DNA of 64,000 nt, taken from NCBI RefSeq assembly GCF_007744675.1, contig NZ_CP036269.1, forward strand, positions 5,931,546 through 5,995,545. Direction: 5' to 3'. Positions 923 to 19,462 of this stretch are shown here, in pieces; the first letter of the stretch is position 1; each line of letters opens with the position of its first letter. The position numbers were made by a program, and so were the translations under genes. Below the pieces are notes generated by a model that saw only the letters and a list, made by a program, of their open reading frames with translations, was not told the origin of the DNA and ran no database searches. Source of the stretch: Gimesia alba (GTDB taxonomy: Bacteria; Planctomycetota; Planctomycetia; Planctomycetales; Planctomycetaceae).

Positions 923-3529
923 TTATTTCTCAACCGGAATGAAGCGATAGATCGTATCGATGATACGATTATGGTGCTTCGTACGATTGACCGTGTTACT
1001 TTGCATGAGCAACACTCCCACCAAATCCCGTTCAAAGTCGACCCAGGCGACAGGGCCCGAATAACCGGGGTGTGACAAAATACGCGAATTACCGTTCACT
1101 TTACTGTCTTTAATCTGAAAGGCCAATCCGTATCGACCATTGGTTCCCGGCTGAGGTTGATAGAGTTGCTGTAATGCCTCCGCTTCAATCAGCTGTTTCC
1201 CATTGTGAATACCGTGATTCAGATGCAGCTGCATCAGCGTGCCGATATCATCGAGCGTCGAATAGACGCCGCCACCAGCTGTGGAAAACCGCTTGTTCTG
1301 TCTTTCGGCCACTTCCAGACCAAAGTTATCCGGCTCGAAGACGCCCGCTTTGCTCGACTGATACAAGGGTGCAAGCTTCTTCAGTTCCTCTTTCGTCGGC
1401 TGAATCGTTGAAGCCTTCAGATTGAGGGGTTTAAAGACACGGTTCTGCATCAGTTCGATAAATGTTTTCCCCGTAATTTTTTCAGCCACGCAGGCAGAGA
1501 GATCGATGGGGCGACCATACATCATCCGCGTCCCCGGTTCGACGACGAGCCCCAGTTTCAGACAGCCATTCACAAAATCCTCTGGCGTCTGCGGGAAGAC
1601 ATAGTCTTTGAGTTCCGGGCTGGATTTCTCAAGCTGTTTTTCCGACTTGAGCCAGTTATCGTTGGGAATTCCCGAAGTGTGACTGAGCACATGAGACAAA
1701 CGGACCGGCTGTTTCGGCTTAGCACCGTCGGGCAGTCGGATCTCGGCAAACTCCGGGAAAGTTTTCGCAATCGGATCATCAAACGTCAATAGACCGTCAT
1801 CCACCAGCGAAGCCATGAGTGTGGCGGTAAACAGTTTACCGGTCGACGCCAGCCAGCAGAGTTGATCCACGGTAAAGGGTTTCTTTGTTTCGATATCGAC
1901 GACGCCATGTGCTTCGCGCATGACAACCTTGCCACGATGAATAAGCAAAACAGAAATTCCAGGGTAATAACCTTCCTTGATCACCGCCTGAATTTTCGCA
2001 CGAATTGCGGCCCGGCCTTCATCGGTCAGATTCGTTTTTTCCGTTAGTTGAAAACCGGCAATCGGCATTTTGACTGCATACAGCGATGTTCGAGCGGTTA
2101 CATACAGCGTTTTGCGATCCGGACCACCAAATGCACAGTTCGCGGGCCCTTCAGGAAACGGAATCACAGCCCGTGTTTCCCCGTCCGGACTGATAACCTG
2201 AATGCAGCTCGCACGCGGACGTGTGACGTACAGATTCCCCTGCACGTCAACCGTCAATCCATCGCCGCCACTTGCAGGCTGATCTTCCCGCTGAATCAGT
2301 GAGCCGAAAACGCGCCCTTTTCCAATCCGGCCCGGCGATTTGATCGGATACGCCAGCAACTCAGCCTGTCCAGAAGGAAGCACATACAATGTTTTTTCAT
2401 CGGGAGAAAGCAACACGCCGTTACAGCGTGAAACATCGCTCACCAGTTTGGTGACTTTCCCCTCCGCCGAACAATAGAACACACCACTGGGGCCGGGATT
2501 CTTTTTCGAACCGCCGATGTCGCTAAAATAAACGCCGTCATGTGAGTCGAGTACGAGATCATTCACACGATGGAATGGTTTCCCTTCACAGGCTGCGGCG
2601 ATGATTTTGTATTTTCCTGTTTTGACATCATAGGCCACGATCTGCGCAGGTGCACCCTCCGTTTTCTGACTGCCCGACTGGCAGGCAAACAAGCGTCCGT
2701 CGGGATGAAAAAACAGACCGTTAGTCCGCAGACTCTCTTCGAGAAACGTGGACAGTGTGCCGTCAGTTAAAACGCGAAATACCTTTTCGGGGCGCAAGTC
2801 TGAAAAATAGACATTCCCTTGTGCATCGGCGGCGGGCCCTTCTGTGAACTGGAATCCGCCATGCAGTTTCTGCACTTCACCAAATTTACCGATGCCCGCG
2901 TGTTTTGAATTGGAAGCAGGTCTGATCCGCAGATTGCGAAATTTCAGCGCGCCTGCTGTTTCTCCTTCCGGTCCGCCGGAATCGCCACCCAGCCCGAAGG
3001 TCAGTTTGCGTTCGGCAATGTATTCAGCCTTCACAGTGAACTCACTGTCATTCACTGTCACTGCCATCACTGGGCCGTCGAACTGCACCTTAGCTCGATA
3101 CCATTGGCCGATATTGATCTGATGCGGTTTCTGGAGCAGGTTTTCCGACTCCCCCTTCTTTGCATGACCGAGTACACGAATCTGATCGCGGCTCACTACC
3201 AGATGCACAATGTGTCCGCGTTTCTGGGAGCCATTGAAAATAATACCGGCAAATTTCGCTTTGCCTTCCAGACGAAACTCGAACTCGACAATCCCGTCAC
3301 GCATAACGAAGCGGCGCATTTTGACGGGGCCATGACGACGCGGGCCGGATTCATATCCGCGCAAGACACCGTCCTGTGCCTGCCACGTTCCCAGTCCCCA
3401 GAACCATTCTGTTGAAAGCGGTTCCTGAAACGATTCCTGGAGCAGGACCAACGGCTCAGCTGCTTTCGTCGTTGCAGTCGCGGTGATACAGAGAATCAGG
3501 CAGAGTAAAATTCGCGTCAGCTTCTTCAT
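923..3529 (-). CDS. Exported three-domain protein: LamG-like + SMP-30/gluconolactonase-like propeller + serine beta-lactamase/esterase
   Basis: 868 residues with a Sec signal peptide (about residues 1-23, ending TKAAE). Residues about 28-205 look like a concanavalin-type beta-sandwich as in DUF1080/LamG proteins. Residues about 215-490 carry SMP-30/gluconolactonase-like propeller blades (GPAADAQGNVYFSD, RVNDLVLDSHDGVYFSD, DGLTVDVQGNLYVT). Residues about 510-868 form a class C beta-lactamase/esterase-type domain with the SxxK motif STGK (Ser562, Lys565), a downstream YGR where the family usually has YxN, and HPGYSG in place of the KTG/HxG box. The start overlaps the stop of the upstream sulfatase gene by 4 bases (ATGA), so translation is probably coupled. 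It likely acts in the periplasm on sugar lactones or esters; the substrate is not known. The Tyr-motif change leaves catalysis of the last domain open. Confidence 0.85.
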   Translation of the reverse strand: MKKLTRILLCLILCITATATTKAAEPLVLLQESFQEPLSTEWFWGLGTWQAQDGVLRGYESGPRRHGPVKMRRFVMRDGIVEFEFRLEGKAKFAGIIFNGSQKRGHIVHLVVSRDQIRVLGHAKKGESENLLQKPHQINIGQWYRAKVQFDGPVMAVTVNDSEFTVKAEYIAERKLTFGLGGDSGGPEGETAGALKFRNLRIRPASNSKHAGIGKFGEVQKLHGGFQFTEGPAADAQGNVYFSDLRPEKVFRVLTDGTLSTFLEESLRTNGLFFHPDGRLFACQSGSQKTEGAPAQIVAYDVKTGKYKIIAAACEGKPFHRVNDLVLDSHDGVYFSDIGGSKKNPGPSGVFYCSAEGKVTKLVSDVSRCNGVLLSPDEKTLYVLPSGQAELLAYPIKSPGRIGKGRVFGSLIQREDQPASGGDGLTVDVQGNLYVTRPRASCIQVISPDGETRAVIPFPEGPANCAFGGPDRKTLYVTARTSLYAVKMPIAGFQLTEKTNLTDEGRAAIRAKIQAVIKEGYYPGISVLLIHRGKVVMREAHGVVDIETKKPFTVDQLCWLASTGKLFTATLMASLVDDGLLTFDDPIAKTFPEFAEIRLPDGAKPKQPVRLSHVLSHTSGIPNDNWLKSEKQLEKSSPELKDYVFPQTPEDFVNGCLKLGLVVEPGTRMMYGRPIDLSACVAEKITGKTFIELMQNRVFKPLNLKASTIQPTKEELKKLAPLYQSSKAGVFEPDNFGLEVAERQNKRFSTAGGGVYSTLDDIGTLMQLHLNHGIHNGKQLIEAEALQQLYQPQPGTNGRYGLAFQIKDSKVNGNSRILSHPGYSGPVAWVDFERDLVGVLLMQSNTVNRTKHHNRIIDTIYRFIPVEK

Positions 3530-11155: not shown

Positions 11156-12703
11156 TCAATCACTGGAAACCGTGGCCCCCTGTTTGCGGGCTTCTTGTAA
11201 CAACCGGTCGATGTCGAACTGTGCAAGAGGGGGTTCCTTGGCTTGGAATGGTTGGATGTGAAACAACGTGACGATCGTTTCCTCAGGAAGGCCAGGACGA
11301 TGAAGTGTGGTAATCCGCATTGCAGGATACCAGCGATCACCGGGTAGCTGTCGCAAATCAGTCAGCCTGTGCTCCTCAGTTCGGCGCCAGCCGTCGGAAT
11401 CCAGGGTCCAATCAATCTGTTCAACAGCGATGTGATCGTGAGCAGGATCGAACCAGCAGTCCTTCCGCCAGTTGACCCCCTCGAAACGGATTCCGATTAA
11501 ACCAGCGTCTTTCTTGCCGGGAGTATTGAGCCGAGTGGCAGTTCCCCCAATTGGCCAGAAACAATCCATTGGAATAATCAAATTGCCCCTACCGCGCGGC
11601 CCGATGCGGATTCGGTTCTCGCGAGTGTTGTAATCGACTCGCCTTTGGCCGTCGTTCAAAAGAATGTTCCATGGCTGCGGTGTCTCGAACCAATCCCAGA
11701 GACGGACTTCGGAGGCATCGTATCGCAGTCGACAGAATTTGACGGGCCCCCAGTAGAACCCGCTTTCGTCCCACTGTGGCAATCCGTCCTGGTAGAACAC
11801 CTGCATTTCCTCGCCCCAGATAAGAGCGCGGTAGCGAGTTGGAAACCGCCCAATCGCTTCGTCGATCTTCTTCAATGCTTGGACAAGTTCGGGTTCGGAC
11901 GCTGGCTGAACGTCCGACATAATTCGTACAGGGAGATTCGCCGGCACTCCCAAGTCGGCCAGACTTTGTGGGCCAGATTGGGGAAAGCTGTAGCGGCCGT
12001 CCTGATATGAGCCATCCAACAAACGCTGCCGCACTCGTACCGGGAGTTTCGTTTGCGGATCGACCCAAAGCTGCCGCTTGACAACGCGCTGCTTGAGGGA
12101 GTTCTGCCCGAAAAAGTCAAACCGGATCAATTGCTGTCCCTGCACTGATTCCGTGTTCCGAGTCCAGGGGGGGCTGTTGCCGGTTGGCAGATCGGCATTC
12201 GGCGTGGTCAGCCATTCCTGTGGGAGACCAACGGCATCCAGCGGCGAACTCGGCGATCCGAGGGCCGTTCGTGGCAAATGGTCTTCTATGATAAAGTGGA
12301 GTTGAGGCCTCCATTGCTGGTGGATGTTGCGCCGATGATCATGGTACGCGGCGTTCCCATTGCGGTCGCGGTGCCAACTCTGATGTTCTCCCAACAGGAT
12401 CCAAAGTTCGTCCCCCGTATCGAATTCTACATGCAACCAGTGCTCGCGGCCAATCGCCTCGCGGAGCTCCGCCAGAGTCAGTTCAGGCGCACTCAAAGAC
12501 AACAGCCATACTGCCAATAACACCAGTACCGAGACAGACAGTCCTAAGCTCGATTTCATGATTCGGAGTCCTTTCCGATTGCTTGGAGTAAAAACCGGCG
12601 AATTGGGCAGGCGATCCATCACCTTGTCCACAAGGGAGCTTTCCGGAGGGAGCGGCTTCCCGAGACATTGCAGCAATTCGTCAAGTTCATGATGCGGATT
12701 CAT
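11156..12703 (-). CDS. Anti-sigma-factor-like membrane protein with large extracytoplasmic domain
   Basis: 515 residues. Residues 1-50 form a short cytoplasmic segment beginning HHELDELLQCLGK, as in many planctomycete anti-sigma factors. A single membrane helix follows at about 51-71 (LSVSVLVLLAVWLLSL). The remaining ~440 residues are extracytoplasmic, beta-rich, and reminiscent of LolA/MucB-type lipoprotein-sorting folds (for example LWVDPQTKLPVRVRQR). The start codon overlaps the stop of the ECF sigma gene by 4 bases (ATGA), the classic arrangement of a sigma/anti-sigma pair. Inference: the cytoplasmic end holds the sigma factor and the outer domain senses an envelope signal. No zinc-type HxxxCxxC motif is visible, so this is not a canonical ZAS anti-sigma. 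Base composition by eye is more GC-rich than the neighbours. Confidence 0.75.
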   Translation of the reverse strand: MNPHHELDELLQCLGKPLPPESSLVDKVMDRLPNSPVFTPSNRKGLRIMKSSLGLSVSVLVLLAVWLLSLSAPELTLAELREAIGREHWLHVEFDTGDELWILLGEHQSWHRDRNGNAAYHDHRRNIHQQWRPQLHFIIEDHLPRTALGSPSSPLDAVGLPQEWLTTPNADLPTGNSPPWTRNTESVQGQQLIRFDFFGQNSLKQRVVKRQLWVDPQTKLPVRVRQRLLDGSYQDGRYSFPQSGPQSLADLGVPANLPVRIMSDVQPASEPELVQALKKIDEAIGRFPTRYRALIWGEEMQVFYQDGLPQWDESGFYWGPVKFCRLRYDASEVRLWDWFETPQPWNILLNDGQRRVDYNTRENRIRIGPRGRGNLIIPMDCFWPIGGTATRLNTPGKKDAGLIGIRFEGVNWRKDCWFDPAHDHIAVEQIDWTLDSDGWRRTEEHRLTDLRQLPGDRWYPAMRITTLHRPGLPEETIVTLFHIQPFQAKEPPLAQFDIDRLLQEARKQGATVSSD

Positions 12704-13227
12704 ACTTCGACCTTCCGTAGAATTTTCTGCAACCGCTCCAGGGCACGCGAGAGTTGTTTGGTTACGGTACCCACAGGGCGGCCGGTCAATTCGGCAATGA
12801 CTCGAACAGAATGGCCGTCCACATACCGGAGCAGCACGACTGCGCGTTCATGCTGGGGTAGGCCTTGGATTGCGGCCAACACATCGTGAAGTTCCGCCTC
12901 ATCGCCCTCCACTACGGGAGGCGTGGCGATCTCAGATACCGTATCCAGAGAACACGCATCGATTTGCCGCCGTCGCAGCACCAGGGCCGCCCGTCGCTCG
13001 GCAATCCGTGCCACCCACGGACCGAACAATGCAGGACTACGAAGCGACTGCAGATTTTCGTAGGCGGCGAGAAACACATCCTGAGTGACATCTTGTGCCA
13101 GGTGATAGTCCTTCACAACTGACCAAACGGTGGTAAGGACGAGTCGCTCATATCGCCGCACGAGTTCGGCGAAGGCAGCCCGCTCACCACACATCACAGA
13201 TTTCACTAGTTCAGCAGTCGATGTCAA
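12700..13227 (-). CDS. ECF-family RNA polymerase sigma factor
   Basis: 175 residues from a TTG at 13227, chosen because GGAG stands eight bases upstream and the protein then begins at the usual ECF position (TSTAELVKSVMCGERAAF); an upstream ATG at 13338 would add 37 residues unlike any sigma factor. Region 2 spans about residues 18-80 (AEDxxQ-like DVTQDVFLAAYENL). Region 4 spans about 115-170 (LPQHERAVVLLRYVDGHSV, then RPVGTVTKQLSRALERLQ as the helix-turn-helix). It directs RNA polymerase to specific promoters. It is followed with a 4-base overlap by a membrane anti-sigma-like gene. The pair lies exactly between two halves of a broken tRNA-Asn copy, suggesting insertion or rearrangement. Confidence 0.9.
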   Translation of the reverse strand: MTSTAELVKSVMCGERAAFAELVRRYERLVLTTVWSVVKDYHLAQDVTQDVFLAAYENLQSLRSPALFGPWVARIAERRAALVLRRRQIDACSLDTVSEIATPPVVEGDEAELHDVLAAIQGLPQHERAVVLLRYVDGHSVRVIAELTGRPVGTVTKQLSRALERLQKILRKVEV

Positions 13228-13384
13228 GATCTTTGCTCCAAACTTCCTTGTGAGAGCCCATATCTTAATAGATGCGCGCCGTGACCGAAATGCGACAAGA
13301 AAAGCCTGTGATCTCGCGGAATTCTCCGGCCCGTTCAACCCTGAGCAAGGCGGTCGAGTCTGGCCCCCTGCATCCTGACTTTCC

Positions 13385-13537: not shown

Positions 13538-14935
13538 TCACATCGGGGCAATCCGTTTGGAGCCAACATCAGTTGTTAAGACGACATGACTATTAAAGCT
13601 CGCTAAGATCAACTGCTGTTTGGCAGCCTGATGTTCCGGGTCGTCCCACAAGTTGTTGTGTTCCCAGGGATCCGTTTGCAAATCGTAGAGCTCTCCCAAA
13701 TCCTTGTCGTGATACAGAGATAATTTATACCGGTCGTCGCGATACATGGTCGCAAAACTGCCCTCCCCGCCCGTGAAAAACGGATCGAGTGCGTCAAAGT
13801 ATTCACAGCGAACACTATCGCGAATTTGTGAGCCTGATTCTTCGCCTGTGAGGACCGGGAGCAGGCTCTGCCCCTGATGATAGTCAGGGATGGGAATACC
13901 TGTTAAATCGAGTAATGTGGCAGAAAGATCGAGTAATTCCACAAGCCCGGTTGCACGCTGGTTGGCCACAAAGTGTCCCGGCCAGGAGAAAATCAACGGT
14001 ACCCGGATCAATCCTTCATAAAATCGACATCCCTTTTGTACCAGCCCATGATCTCCCAACGTCTCACCATGGTCTGAAGTGAAAATGATGACCGTATTGT
14101 CTCTCTGTCCTGTTGATTCTAATGCGTTGAGGATCCGCGCAAACTGATCGTCAATTTGAGCAATCATTGCATAATAAAGTGCCTGAACTTTTTTCAGCTC
14201 ACTGATTTCCGTGGACATCGTGACAGGCTGAAAATCAACCCGGGAAAGCAGTTCCTGGGTCGCCTGATCAGACTCCTCAAAATGGGGACCCGGCATCGCG
14301 GCAGGGTCGAACATATTCGCATATTTTTCAGGAGGCGTAAACGGAGGATGCGGGTCATAGATATTGATATTCAGCAACCAGGGCTGTTGATGATCCTGTT
14401 CGATAAATTCGATCGCCCGATCGGAGGCCCATTTTGTCTGATGGTATTCGGGGTCAACATTCTCTTTGCTGTTTCGCATGTCATCAAGGCTTTTACCTTG
14501 AGCACGTACCCAGTCGGCATAATCGTGTGTTCCTTCAGGCCAATCATCACGCGGAGCATGGCTGTGCTGCCAGAGTGTGAACCCATCATCCAGCCGAGGT
14601 TCTGCGCGATGGCCGGCACTCACTAAATGAAATTTTCCAATCAACCCACACTGGTAACCACTCTCTGCGATTAACTTGCTGATCAGTGGTGGCCAATCAG
14701 GAAAGGTGTCGTTGCCATTTCTGGTATTGTGTAAGCGCGAAGGATACAGCCCGCTCATAAAACTCGCCCTGCTGGGGGTACAGATTGGACTTTGGCAATA
14801 CGCATGCGTAAAGGCCACCCCCTCTTCCACGAGCGAATCAACCACAGGCGTTTTCACATACGCGTTCCCCAGCGCACCAATGGTGTCAAACCGTTGCTGG
14901 TCGGTGCAATACCATAAAATATTAGGACGGGTCAT
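13538..14935 (-). CDS. Sulfatase without signal peptide
   Basis: 465 residues starting MTRPNILWYCTDQQRFD, so the mature sulfatase fold begins at residue 3 and no export signal is present. The formylglycine motif is CTPSR (Cys52). FTSDHGETLGDHG gives the second metal-binding block, with the C-terminal DLGELYDLQTDPWEHNNL tail. The family is the choline-sulfatase/arylsulfatase-like group with motif C-T-P-S-R. A ribosome site (AAGGCG) precedes the ATG. It lies 89 bases downstream of the fused tripartite tricarboxylate transporter on the same strand, which suggests co-transcription and desulfation of an imported substrate in the cytoplasm. The substrate is unknown. Confidence 0.92.
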   Translation of the reverse strand: MTRPNILWYCTDQQRFDTIGALGNAYVKTPVVDSLVEEGVAFTHAYCQSPICTPSRASFMSGLYPSRLHNTRNGNDTFPDWPPLISKLIAESGYQCGLIGKFHLVSAGHRAEPRLDDGFTLWQHSHAPRDDWPEGTHDYADWVRAQGKSLDDMRNSKENVDPEYHQTKWASDRAIEFIEQDHQQPWLLNINIYDPHPPFTPPEKYANMFDPAAMPGPHFEESDQATQELLSRVDFQPVTMSTEISELKKVQALYYAMIAQIDDQFARILNALESTGQRDNTVIIFTSDHGETLGDHGLVQKGCRFYEGLIRVPLIFSWPGHFVANQRATGLVELLDLSATLLDLTGIPIPDYHQGQSLLPVLTGEESGSQIRDSVRCEYFDALDPFFTGGEGSFATMYRDDRYKLSLYHDKDLGELYDLQTDPWEHNNLWDDPEHQAAKQQLILASFNSHVVLTTDVGSKRIAPM

Positions 14936-15024: not shown

Positions 15025-17943
15025 TTAGGGCAGTACAACAGAGAATACTGATGTGAACACAATTTCTGTACCCAAACCAGTCAACAAAGAGAGTTCGATG
15101 AGAATTAACAAATACCTCGGTTGCCATTTTGCCATAGCTCCGCCAGTGACTGCAACCATAAATGCAGTTGCCAGCCAGTAACTGAGCCAGCCCTGTTCTA
15201 ACACCAGCACATAACAGCAAAGCAGTACAAAACAACAAATGGCCAGCCAGATGCGCGGCTTGCAGCTTGAGAATCTATTTGTTGACGGTGTTTGACTGAG
15301 ACGTTTTTCCTGTACGACGATAATGCTCATCAATGAGAGAGTTGCCATGATCATATAGAAAGGAAAATCAGGAATCTGAACTGTTGATCCGGGAACCAGT
15401 TCGCTAAATTTCTTCTCACTTTGGCTGATGTTCTCATTTAATTTCTCGCCCCGATAAAACACCGGTGCAATAGACAACACCCGCAAACTATTCCGCACAG
15501 AATCGGATTGCATCGCCCGCTCCAGTGTATCTGCCAGTAGATCAATTCGCTCTTGCGGAGTACCTTTGGGTGCCCACCAGTAAAACGAGTTACCAACCAC
15601 GGCATCGATATGCTGTTCGCGAGCCGTCGAAACGTCCGGCAGGGCGGCTTGCCTCTTGTCAGACAATACTGCCAAAGCGCGAATCTGCCCGTCTCCCTGA
15701 TAGGACAGAAATTCTGCCAGCGAAAAAATGGTGGCATCGATATGACCACCAATGAGCATCGTATATCGCTTTTGCCCATCTCCCGATTGCACATAATTAA
15801 AATATTCACCACCAGAGGCCTGTTCTATCTTTTTGGCAGCGAAATGGGCGACTGCCCCGAAATTGGTTCCAAATTGAACTTTACCAGGATGGTTCTCGGC
15901 GTAATGCAACAGCTCAGCCAGATTTTTGTACCGGGCATTTTGATGCGTTGCTACCACCAGGTTAATCTCTCCCGTTTGGGCAATCGGATCAAAAGCCTCC
16001 GGACCGTAGTTCACTTTGCCGGAGTATTTCGATGTAATAATCCCCTCATGGTTACAGAGTATTTTGTAACCATCGGCCCGCGCCTGTTTGACATTTCGGC
16101 TCCCAATCGTACTACTGCCCCCCGGCTGATTAATGATGACGACAGGTTGTTTCAGCAGCTTATTCTCGGTGATGGACTTTTGAATGATTCTGGCAAACAG
16201 GTCCGTTCCGCCTCCTGCAGAAAACGGCACGACAACCTGAACGGGGCGTTGTGGAAATTGCGTCAGCTCATGTTGATTCGCGAAGAAACCAGAAAACTGA
16301 AAGACGATCATGCCAATAATGGCCGTCACCGCAACAGTATGCCAAACTGGTAAACCGTATCGACTCCAAAATGAGTGAGACTCATCTTCTGCGTTCTCAC
16401 TCAATATTTCTGAGGAATTAAGAGCAGTCGTCTTTTCGGCATCATCATGCAAGGTCTCTTTTTTGCTGTCCGATTGTTTGCGGAACCGACGCACAAGCGG
16501 CACAATCAGCAATAATGCAGAGATGGCGACAAAGAGTAAAGAAATGGGCCGAGTGATGATCGGTAACCAGCTACCATGCGATGACATTAGCCCGGCGCAC
16601 AAATTTTCTTCCGCAATCGGACCTAAGACAAAACCAATGACAAAGGGTGCCAATGGGATTCGGTTTCGCTCTAATACCAGTCCCAGCAGCCCGAAACCGA
16701 GCATCACCCAGACATCGAACATTCGGTTCGACAACGCAAATGCTCCGGCAATGCAAAAGGTGAGAATAATGGGTAACAAAAAAGGACGTGGAAACCGTAC
16801 CAGTTTTGCCAGAAAACCGACTGATGCAATCATCACCGCAAACATGACCAGGTTTGCCAGAAAATAGGTCCCCATAATGGTATGCACGAGTTCGGGATGA
16901 TCGCTGAATAACCGCGGACCTGGTTGCAAACCATGCAGAACTAATGCGCCGAGCAAAATGGCATCGATCACACTGCCAGGGATGCCCATCGCCACGAGTG
17001 GAATTAAAGCGCCTCCTACAGTCGCATTATTGGCTGCTTCTGAAGCAATAATCCCCTCAGCAGAACCGGAACCGAATTTCTGTGGAGTTTTGGAACTGTT
17101 TTTGGCGGCTGAATAAGCGGCTATCGAGCCGATGTTGGCACCAATGCCGGGAAGTATTCCAATAAATGTTCCAATAAAGGAAGACCGCAACATATTAACC
17201 CATTGATTTTTCCAATCTCTGAAAGTAAGCCACAACCCACTGTGTGTTACCGAGACGCGCGGAACTTTCTTGTCAATATTCGCAATATCGCGCAGCACCT
17301 GATTGATCGCAAACATTCCAATTAAAACGGGCAACAATTTGAAACCACCATTGAGAGGAGTGAACCCGAATGTGAGTCGTACTTCGCCAGTGGCTGCGGA
17401 AATTCCCGGCATGGCTGCCAAAATTCCCAATGTTCCCGAAAAGAGTGAGCGCGTCAGCGATGCACCATCAATGGTCGCGATTAGCACCAGGGCCATCAAC
17501 ACCAGCGAGAAGTACTCAAAAGGTCCCAATTGTGTTGACCAGCGGGCAATCGGGGCAGACAAGGTGACTAAAAACACACAGGAAATTAAACCACCCACCA
17601 GGGAAGCATAAATTCCCAGCCCCAGCGCACGACCGGGCTGACCTTGTTGCGACATGGGGTATCCATCAAGCGTTGTCATAACAGAGGCGGGCGTGCCGGG
17701 CATTCGCAAGAGTGTGCCGGTTATCAAGCCACCGCTGATTGATCCCACATACATACTCACTAACAATGTCATCGCCAGTTGAGGATCGAGCGTAAACGTC
17801 AACGGCAACGTGAGTGCAATCAACATGGCGCCGGTTAACCCGGGAATCGCACCCACGAAGATACCAAGCGATGTTCCCACAAAAATCAGCGTCAGGCTGA
17901 GAGGTGTAGATAATTGAACAACTGTCGTTTGAATCGCATCCAT
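15025..17943 (-). CDS. Single-chain tripartite tricarboxylate transporter (TctA-TctC-TctB fusion)
   Basis: 972 residues covering all three parts of a TTT transporter. Residues about 1-485 are TctA, the multi-helix permease, with GIFVGAIPGLTGAM near the start and the repeated ILPGIGANIGS block in the second half. After an acidic linker (about 486-520) and one membrane helix (about 523-545), residues about 563-850 form a Bug/TctC-type solute-binding domain (VQVVVPFSAGGGTDLFAR, INQPGGSSTIG, DGYKIL). Residues about 855-972 contain about four membrane helices with VLEQGWLSYWLAT, as in TctB. In known systems (Salmonella TctABC) these are separate proteins and TctC is a free periplasmic protein. Here it is tethered and lies between the two membrane parts. 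The ATG opens a hydrophobic N-terminus with no good ribosome site visible. Probable import of a carboxylate; substrate unknown. Confidence 0.9.
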   Translation of the reverse strand: MDAIQTTVVQLSTPLSLTLIFVGTSLGIFVGAIPGLTGAMLIALTLPLTFTLDPQLAMTLLVSMYVGSISGGLITGTLLRMPGTPASVMTTLDGYPMSQQGQPGRALGLGIYASLVGGLISCVFLVTLSAPIARWSTQLGPFEYFSLVLMALVLIATIDGASLTRSLFSGTLGILAAMPGISAATGEVRLTFGFTPLNGGFKLLPVLIGMFAINQVLRDIANIDKKVPRVSVTHSGLWLTFRDWKNQWVNMLRSSFIGTFIGILPGIGANIGSIAAYSAAKNSSKTPQKFGSGSAEGIIASEAANNATVGGALIPLVAMGIPGSVIDAILLGALVLHGLQPGPRLFSDHPELVHTIMGTYFLANLVMFAVMIASVGFLAKLVRFPRPFLLPIILTFCIAGAFALSNRMFDVWVMLGFGLLGLVLERNRIPLAPFVIGFVLGPIAEENLCAGLMSSHGSWLPIITRPISLLFVAISALLLIVPLVRRFRKQSDSKKETLHDDAEKTTALNSSEILSENAEDESHSFWSRYGLPVWHTVAVTAIIGMIVFQFSGFFANQHELTQFPQRPVQVVVPFSAGGGTDLFARIIQKSITENKLLKQPVVIINQPGGSSTIGSRNVKQARADGYKILCNHEGIITSKYSGKVNYGPEAFDPIAQTGEINLVVATHQNARYKNLAELLHYAENHPGKVQFGTNFGAVAHFAAKKIEQASGGEYFNYVQSGDGQKRYTMLIGGHIDATIFSLAEFLSYQGDGQIRALAVLSDKRQAALPDVSTAREQHIDAVVGNSFYWWAPKGTPQERIDLLADTLERAMQSDSVRNSLRVLSIAPVFYRGEKLNENISQSEKKFSELVPGSTVQIPDFPFYMIMATLSLMSIIVVQEKRLSQTPSTNRFSSCKPRIWLAICCFVLLCCYVLVLEQGWLSYWLATAFMVAVTGGAMAKWQPRYLLILIELSLLTGLGTEIVFTSVFSVVLP

Positions 17944-18469: not shown

Positions 18470-18913
18470 TCACTCAGCTTCGGCGTCCGGTTGCTCGGGG
18501 GCCACCCCTTTGATCTTTTCCAAGGTGACTTTATTGCCTTGCTCATTGTATTCGATGAGGTTCATAAAGGCCCCCATCAGCATGATTCCCCGGCCACAGG
18601 GGCGTTCGAGATTTTCCAGCAGGGTAGGATCCGGGACATCGGTCCGGTCAAAGCCTTCGCCTTCATCCTGGATTTCAATGCGAACCCGTTCGTCGCTCAA
18701 CCAGCAGTTGATTTCAACGCTTTTGTCAGGCGACATGCGATTCCCATGCTTGATGGCATTCACCAACGCCTCTTCCAGAGCCAGGCGCACGGCAAAGACA
18801 TCGCGATCTGGATACTCACGTACCTCAAGAGCCTCGACAATCCTGGCTTGAACAGCCTGACCTTCCGAGGTATCGCTGGGAATCGTTACTTCAAAGTGTT
18901 CGTCCGATGACAT
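18470..18913 (-). CDS. RsbW-like anti-sigma/serine kinase (HATPase_c)
   Basis: 147 residues from the ATG at 18913; a GTG five codons earlier is the alternative. It is a compact GHKL ATPase of the RsbW/SpoIIAB type. The N box is EEALVNAIKHGN (about residues 50-61), the G1 box IQDEGEGFD, and the G2 box GRGIMLM. Such proteins bind a sigma factor or other target and phosphorylate a STAS antagonist. A STAS protein gene lies 190 bases upstream on the same strand (19106-19462), so the two probably form a partner-switching pair. No sigma factor or PP2C phosphatase gene adjoins them; the ECF gene at 12.7 kb is of another class. Confidence 0.88.
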   Translation of the reverse strand: MSSDEHFEVTIPSDTSEGQAVQARIVEALEVREYPDRDVFAVRLALEEALVNAIKHGNRMSPDKSVEINCWLSDERVRIEIQDEGEGFDRTDVPDPTLLENLERPCGRGIMLMGAFMNLIEYNEQGNKVTLEKIKGVAPEQPDAEAE

Positions 18914-19105
18914 GTATTTGGCCAGCACACGATTTCTGGTGATTATCCAGTTACTATTTAGAGATAGTTCAAGCAGTTTTCAGGAAAACAGATTCAAAAA
19001 TCAACGCCCGAATTCCTTGCTGAAAGATCTCACAACATTTTGTTCTCCAAGAGTGCTTTGTGAACGACTGGGAATGCATCCGAACCTGCCATTCCCGAGC
19101 CAAAG

Positions 19106-19462
19106 CTAAAACCCTTCGAGAGCAGCTTCCTGTGTTTCGGCGATATCAAAAAGTTGATTCAGTCTCGTAATGGCAAATACTTCATAGATATCAGGACGAA
19201 TTGAACAAAGTTTCAATTTCCCCTTTGCCTTTTTAACTTTTTTATCCAGTGTAATTAACTTTCCGAGTGCTGCACTGGAAAGATATTCGACATTGGAAAA
19301 GTCGAGAATAATCTTCTTGCGCCCATCTTCATCGACAAGTCCGAATAATTGCGTCCCGATGATCTGGATGTTTCCTTCATCAAGAATCTTCTTGTCAATA
19401 AACTTTGCAATGGTGACATCATTGACTTCCTCGATGTCAACACGACGGTGACCAGCTGCCAT
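19106..19462 (-). CDS. STAS-domain anti-sigma factor antagonist
   Basis: 118 residues forming one STAS domain. The strand-helix-strand core holds ILDFSNVEYLSSAALGKLI, with the phosphorylatable Ser in the SSAALG segment as in SpoIIAA/RsbV, and then KLKLCSIRPDIYEVF. The ribosome region before the ATG is purine-rich (AAGAGGGTGGG). Its likely partner is the RsbW-like kinase encoded downstream at 18470-18913. Unphosphorylated STAS protein would bind the kinase and release its target. The regulated process is unknown. Confidence 0.9.
   Translation of the reverse strand: MAAGHRRVDIEEVNDVTIAKFIDKKILDEGNIQIIGTQLFGLVDEDGRKKIILDFSNVEYLSSAALGKLITLDKKVKKAKGKLKLCSIRPDIYEVFAITRLNQLFDIAETQEAALEGF

Follow-up and report, generated by a model that had tools for sequence, protein, structure and literature searches.

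A single gene of the planctomycete Gimesia alba encodes all three parts of a tripartite tricarboxylate transporter (TTT; TC 2.A.80) in one polypeptide: a TctA permease, a TctC/Bug-type substrate-binding protein (SBP) domain and, more weakly, a TctB part. The gene lies in a window of 64,000 nucleotides (positions 5,931,546 to 5,995,545 of NZ_CP036269.1), drawn from a genome that consists of one contig of 7.77 Mb, and its frame runs cleanly for 972 codons from ATG to TAA with no internal stop (Table 1). A first-pass annotation of this DNA had proposed a single polypeptide in the order TctA-TctC-TctB. The frame and its Pfam matches bear this out, the TctB call being the weakest of the three. TTTs are usually described as separate subunits with a free exported SBP (PMC5812351), and here there is one ORF instead. 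Taken as a whole, the evidence is very probably best explained by a TTT-type importer whose three subunits are united in a single membrane protein with a tethered binding domain.

Table 1. Features of the fused gene and its neighbor. Positions are those of the 64,000-nucleotide window. AF2, AlphaFold2.
Feature	Position	Strand	Median dN/dS (66 genome pairs)	Evidence and remarks
Whole reading frame, 972 aa	15025..17943	(-)		TctA - linker and helix - TctC/Bug domain - TctB part
TctA permease domain, residues 1-485 (Pfam 17-436)	16489..17943	(-)	0.083	PF01970, E 1e-141
Hydrophilic linker, residues 486-532, presumed cytoplasmic, most variable stretch	16348..16488	(-)	0.449	Median identity 57%
Linker membrane helix, residues 533-555	16279..16347	(-)	0.218	Alignment; hydropathy and cleavage-site check; low-confidence helix in both AF2 models
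TctC/Bug substrate-binding domain, residues 557-858 (Pfam 585-848)	15370..16275	(-)	0.189	PF03401, E 2e-33; PDB relatives by sequence and fold
TctB part, residues 859-972, read as TctB helices 2-5 without helix 1	15028..15369	(-)	0.305	PF07331, E 5.2e-7; hhalign; AF2
Presumed type I sulfatase, CTPSR sequence, no evident signal peptide by eye	13538..14935	(-)		Next gene downstream, 89 bases away

The permease and the binding domain are recognized directly. The TctA domain reaches 472.9 bits against a family cut-off of 28.9, the binding domain matches the TctC/Bug family (Table 1), and a sequence search of the PDB with the chain returned 11 sequences, every one of them matching over the binding domain alone. 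The TctB part is harder to detect. Pfam run on the whole chain reports no TctB row, either here or in the four other fused proteins of the genus that were given to it. When the C-terminal 114 residues are searched alone, they match the TctB family with 30.3 bits against a cut-off of 29.1, over profile positions 32-137 of 137, and the same part reaches 33.5 bits, again above the cut-off, in the genome scan. A profile built from seven separate TctB proteins, with no fused member, also finds it (iE 2.7e-16), and hhalign aligned a 13-row alignment of the C-terminus with the seven separate TctB proteins over the last 79 columns (probability 99.3, E 4.6e-20). These matches identify a TctB subunit, partial and weakly matched, without helix 1.

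The same helix is missing from unfused relatives. Pfam finds TctC followed by TctB in all seven unfused two-domain proteins that we scanned, with the TctB match beginning at profile position 25-37 of 137 and one TctB hit (L048) falling below the Pfam cut-off. Among the 72 binding-domain frames of at least 420 aa, duplicates and fused ones counted, 68 match our own TctB profile at iE <1e-3, always from a position of at least 41 out of about 170. The remaining frames are L091, L092, L095 and L002, and Pfam detects TctB in L002 from position 22. At L088, where TctB is separate, its first helix ends ahead of the region aligned with the two-domain TctB starts. Judged by these profiles and alignments, TctB helix 1 is unmatched both in the fused chain and in unfused two-domain relatives, and the helix at residues 533-555 aligns with the helix at the N-terminus of unfused TctC-TctB proteins and takes the place of TctB helix 1. 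Because the TctB part lacks helix 1, the SBP would sit where the loop after that helix belongs. The first-pass annotation had described a TctB-like four-helix part and an extra single helix. The four helices and the helix ahead of the SBP both stand; the TctB part is incomplete, missing the canonical first helix, and the extra helix is reread as the one that begins a two-domain TctC-TctB protein. As a side observation, models with four TctB helices and without the first suggest five helical segments in a full TctB, versus the four given in a review of the family.

Structure prediction returned a layout of the same kind. We modeled the whole chain with AlphaFold2 from an alignment of 49 rows (A4, with 5 of 83 separate TctA rows and 42 of 45 TctC-TctB rows). 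The best of five models has a mean pLDDT of 82.1 and a pTM of 0.58, and its pLDDT falls below 50 only in residues 504-561, 853-857 and 887-894. It comprises mostly helices in residues 1-504, a low-confidence helix at 534-554, an alpha/beta binding domain and then four C-terminal helices (860-883, 895-917, 922-937 and 942-966). Modeling residues 505-972 separately (47 rows) left this layout unchanged, with a mean pLDDT of 85.1 and a pTM of 0.69. Ten-residue pLDDT means over the linker helix are 38-48 in the whole-chain model and 56-79 in the shorter one. A Foldseek search aligned the binding domain with TctC/Bug proteins of solved structure, at a best E of 9.8e-18 and with target TM-scores of 0.74-0.88 over the 17 leading rows, all of the TctC/Bug type. 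Among the best 50 of 963 matches none is titled a membrane transporter, and the search leaves the TctA and TctB folds uninformed. Folding the product, as had been suggested, recovered the known fold of the binding domain; for TctA and TctB the model gives helices.

The distribution of charges was examined for the orientation of the chain in the membrane. The two TctB loops expected inside carry three and two basic residues, the three stretches expected outside carry none, and one basic residue follows the linker helix. The linker itself, with 6 basic and 10 acidic residues at 487-536, is a poor cytoplasmic signal. The N-terminus of TctA has been described as predicted to be cytoplasmic (PMC5812351). 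We take the binding domain to be periplasmic, and the earlier proposal of a helix before the SBP that would place this domain outside is supported.

The fused chain is conserved within the genus. Searching 170 genomes of the order, with the best five candidates per genome scored, we recovered the full-length chain (residues 1-972, no stop) from 12 of 17 same-genus genomes, that of G. alba included, at 86-100% identity and a length of 972-975 aa. The frame runs off a contig end in a thirteenth genome (G034), and four genomes (G033, G036, G038 and G039, which are 100, 74, 96 and 92% complete) are without the gene among the matches listed. Finding the same chain in 12 genomes of the genus leads us to reject a sequencing or assembly error, and makes it very unlikely that stops near 16480 and 15380 were lost in this way. 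The initial judgment that this is not an assembly error is further borne out by a median dN/dS below 0.5 in every segment.

Could two genes nevertheless have run together by accident, or be decaying, with no function as a fusion? The four genomes without the gene and the looser constraint on the linker and the TctB part (median dN/dS 0.449 and 0.305, against 0.083 for TctA) are what would speak for this. However, the frame is unbroken in 12 of the 12 genomes holding the whole gene at a median dS of 0.33-0.61 by segment, and the SBP domain evolves at a dN/dS of 0.189. An accidental join is already largely refuted by these data, and we find it scarcely credible. The linker, the most variable segment, is nonetheless nearly constant in length, with 4 gapped columns in the whole 12-genome alignment.

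Related loci suggest how such a chain could have been assembled. We scanned genome contigs and compared the best 80 of 136 related loci, a set that may lack records lying very close to the window. Only one of the 80 shows the fusion (L033, apparently the same record as L012), and L034 is truncated inside TctA. TctC, TctB and TctA occupy separate frames at seven proteobacterial loci (L069, L083, L088, L089, L090, L093 and L094), and L097 has the same three parts in overextended frames. Many planctomycete, Verrucomicrobiota and Lentisphaera loci pair tctA with a second gene of ~429-554 codons that encodes TctC and then TctB; 45 distinct TctC-TctB frames were taken from L033-L112. At ten loci tctA comes before tctCB (L021, L028, L038, L040, L042, L043, L044, L048, L051 and L102), and at every one of the ten the tctA stop overlaps the following start as a 4-base ATGA or GTGA. 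The overlapping start differs from the first start of the tctCB frame at L028, L044, L051 and L102. The linker of the fused chain lies where these loci have their stop/start overlap, at which a small insertion or deletion could, by our reasoning, fuse tctA with tctCB.

A tree of 84 TctA rows, built by a quick method with SH-aLRT support and midpoint-rooted for drawing, recovers a fused clade (100) and a clade with the tctA-tctCB arrangement (100) as sisters (96); one row, L034, is labeled fused by assumption, and ten rows are of unknown arrangement. The rows labeled separate, meaning a binding-protein frame below 420 aa with TctB not always detected, fall on one side of one branch (99), and rows in which tctCB precedes tctA require several changes. 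The tree suggests that the union of SBP and TctB preceded the addition of TctA. The order would then run from three genes to a joined tctCB, to tctA followed by tctCB, and to all parts joined. Separately, we observed five proteobacterial regions (L114, L116, L120, L132 and L133) in which only one stop codon separates the tctA frame from a tctC frame that comes after it in phase; these are one step from a natural TctA-TctC fusion.

We think that the chain stays whole in the cell. Signal peptidase or a membrane protease could instead cut it at the linker helix, so that, as in the sister clade, TctA and a TctC-TctB protein would be the working form. The linker helix corresponds to the N-terminal helix of relatives, some of which end in a lipobox-like pattern; our crude pattern flags 20 of 57 frames of unfused relatives, with false hits and misses visible. 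One weak cleavage-type site (LYS/G) also occurs in 4 of the 12 fused proteins. Yet the -3/-1 rule gives no site in 8 of the 12 within the part of the linker helix examined, and the crude lipobox pattern appears in only 1 of 10 sister-clade proteins (L028, doubtful). Cleavage at the helix is, on balance, unlikely.

Internal translation initiation, as a relic of the overlapping start codon, might also yield some free TctC-TctB, and we consider this still less probable. The sister clade does begin tctCB at the overlap; 8 of the 12 genomes read ATG or TTG at one linker site, and all 12 retain an ATG within the linker helix. However, that linker site, the best one, reads TTA in the other 4 genomes, and a single linker site with a start codon in all 12, for which we looked, was not found. 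Initiation at the ATG of the helix would leave a remaining helix that is probably too short to anchor or export the domain.

Outside the genus, no TctA-SBP-TctB single chain was found among the matches listed in the genome samples that we queried with the fused protein (P0001). These samples comprised the 170 genomes of the order (best 5 candidates each), 392 of the phylum (best 2, overlapping the order sample), 288 from the phylum of G535 (best 2), 289 from the class of G536 (best 2), 100 from the order of G537 (best 8) and the 5 genomes behind related loci; TTT-rich proteobacteria, in which TTT genes are commonest, were thinly sampled. The proposed search of planctomycetes for the same three-domain order was thus positive in 12 of 17 genus genomes and nowhere else among the matches listed. 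We also checked 21 regions with a long open frame or with a match across a stop (13 and 8) against the three profiles, a set that left out other stop-crossing rows such as G480 and G1165. No three-domain chain appeared among the 21, and L122 gave no profile match. Three proteobacterial loci with long TctA frames (L118, L128 and L131) have their TctB match in another frame and so give no support for TctB-TctA fusions. L119 is a possible TctB-TctA fusion: its TctA frame (1110-3098) has ~170 residues, the size of TctB, before the TctA match, and no TctB match there.

The genome holds two places each for TctA, TctC and TctB above the family cut-offs, that is, two systems. The second TTT (G000:C1:917830-920459; L002) consists of a two-domain TctC-TctB gene followed by a separate tctA, and its TctB part scores 57.8 bits. 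Tethering had been suggested to remove competition among many TctC proteins. This argument fails, because there are only two TctC domains in the genome and both are joined to a TctB.

We then considered what the transporter might carry. The next gene downstream contains CTPSR, which we take to be the type I sulfatase motif, and all 12 genomes with the fusion have it beside the fused gene, at 94-100% identity, which makes a sulfated organic anion a possible cargo. This is our best guess, made with low confidence, and the sulfatase is a candidate functional partner of the transporter. Its scores lie below the NCBIfam equivalog cut-offs for choline sulfatase and a named arylsulfatase (217.2 of 433.45 bits and 279 of 481 bits, respectively). 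A sulfatase relative of at least 65% identity accompanies 24 of the best 80 of 136 related loci, several of them short contigs. In the sister clade, the sulfatase seen at five loci (L042, L043, L044, L051 and L102) is no more than a distant one (~32%), which makes the link with a sulfated cargo uneven. At the other five (L021, L028, L038, L040 and L048) no close sulfatase was seen, with little or no downstream DNA except at L048. As for other neighbors (11156-13338 and 18470-19462), read from the ORF list alone, one flank has an ECF sigma factor-like gene together with a large partner protein, and the opposite flank has genes resembling an anti-sigma kinase and an antagonist of it.

We propose that the TctC/Bug domain would stand in the periplasm, anchored N-terminally by the membrane helix after TctA and C-terminally by TctB helices 2-5. 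There it would catch an organic anion and pass it to its own TctA, which would import the anion on an ion gradient, with the TctB part serving as a scaffold or landing pad. As the most speculative step, the neighboring sulfatase would desulfate a sulfated organic anion in the cytoplasm. From the sequence comparisons and models, we infer the intact chain, its topology, the one-to-one tethered delivery and the order of arrangements. The reading that combines all of these, namely a one-chain SBP-dependent secondary importer with intramolecular delivery, assembled by stepwise gene joining and bringing in a sulfated organic anion intact for a sulfatase in the cytoplasm, is put forward tentatively, at somewhat less than even odds of holding in full.

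If it works as proposed, the fused chain would tie the nutrient-catching part of the transporter permanently to its gate. TctB has been described as being of unknown function, and neither TctA nor TctB as having a solved crystal structure (PMC5812351). For cryo-EM, a TTT that is naturally one chain would provide a complex of fixed 1:1:1 composition, and it would allow a test of whether uptake is limited by docking or by diffusion of the binding protein. The series of relatives, with its overlapping stop and start, illustrates clearly how the several proteins of a transporter may merge into one with the topology kept.

Among open-licence papers surveyed by title and the start of the abstract, none concerned a single-chain TTT or a TctC-TctB fusion, most subscription journals lying outside this scope. 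The closest known system is the TTT (TctABC) itself, which has the same three domains by Pfam and whose solved Bug/TctC proteins share the fold of the SBP; the fused chain differs in being one polypeptide, in having the linker helix in place of TctB helix 1 and in tethering the SBP at both ends. TctAB fusions are reported as rare TTT members (Rosa et al., PMC5812351) and likewise join TTT membrane subunits, but in those, as described, the binding protein remains separate. The Q-P fusions of TRAP transporters (PMC8276074) join the binding protein to the small membrane subunit and are the counterpart of the unfused TctC-TctB gene, although the large subunit is described as separate in TRAP, and TRAP and TTT are stated to share no sequence similarity (PMC5812351). 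In TAXI-GltS, given as 14 of about 10,000 GltS entries (PMC12344293), an SBP is likewise joined to a secondary transporter, one for which an elevator type has been proposed; according to that account, the fusion pairs another SBP with another permease in two parts, has no small membrane subunit and occurs mostly in Lachnospiraceae. Finally, the ABC importers GlnPQ and OpuA are likewise described as having a binding domain covalently tied to the membrane part but, unlike the secondary importer proposed here, they are driven by ATP.
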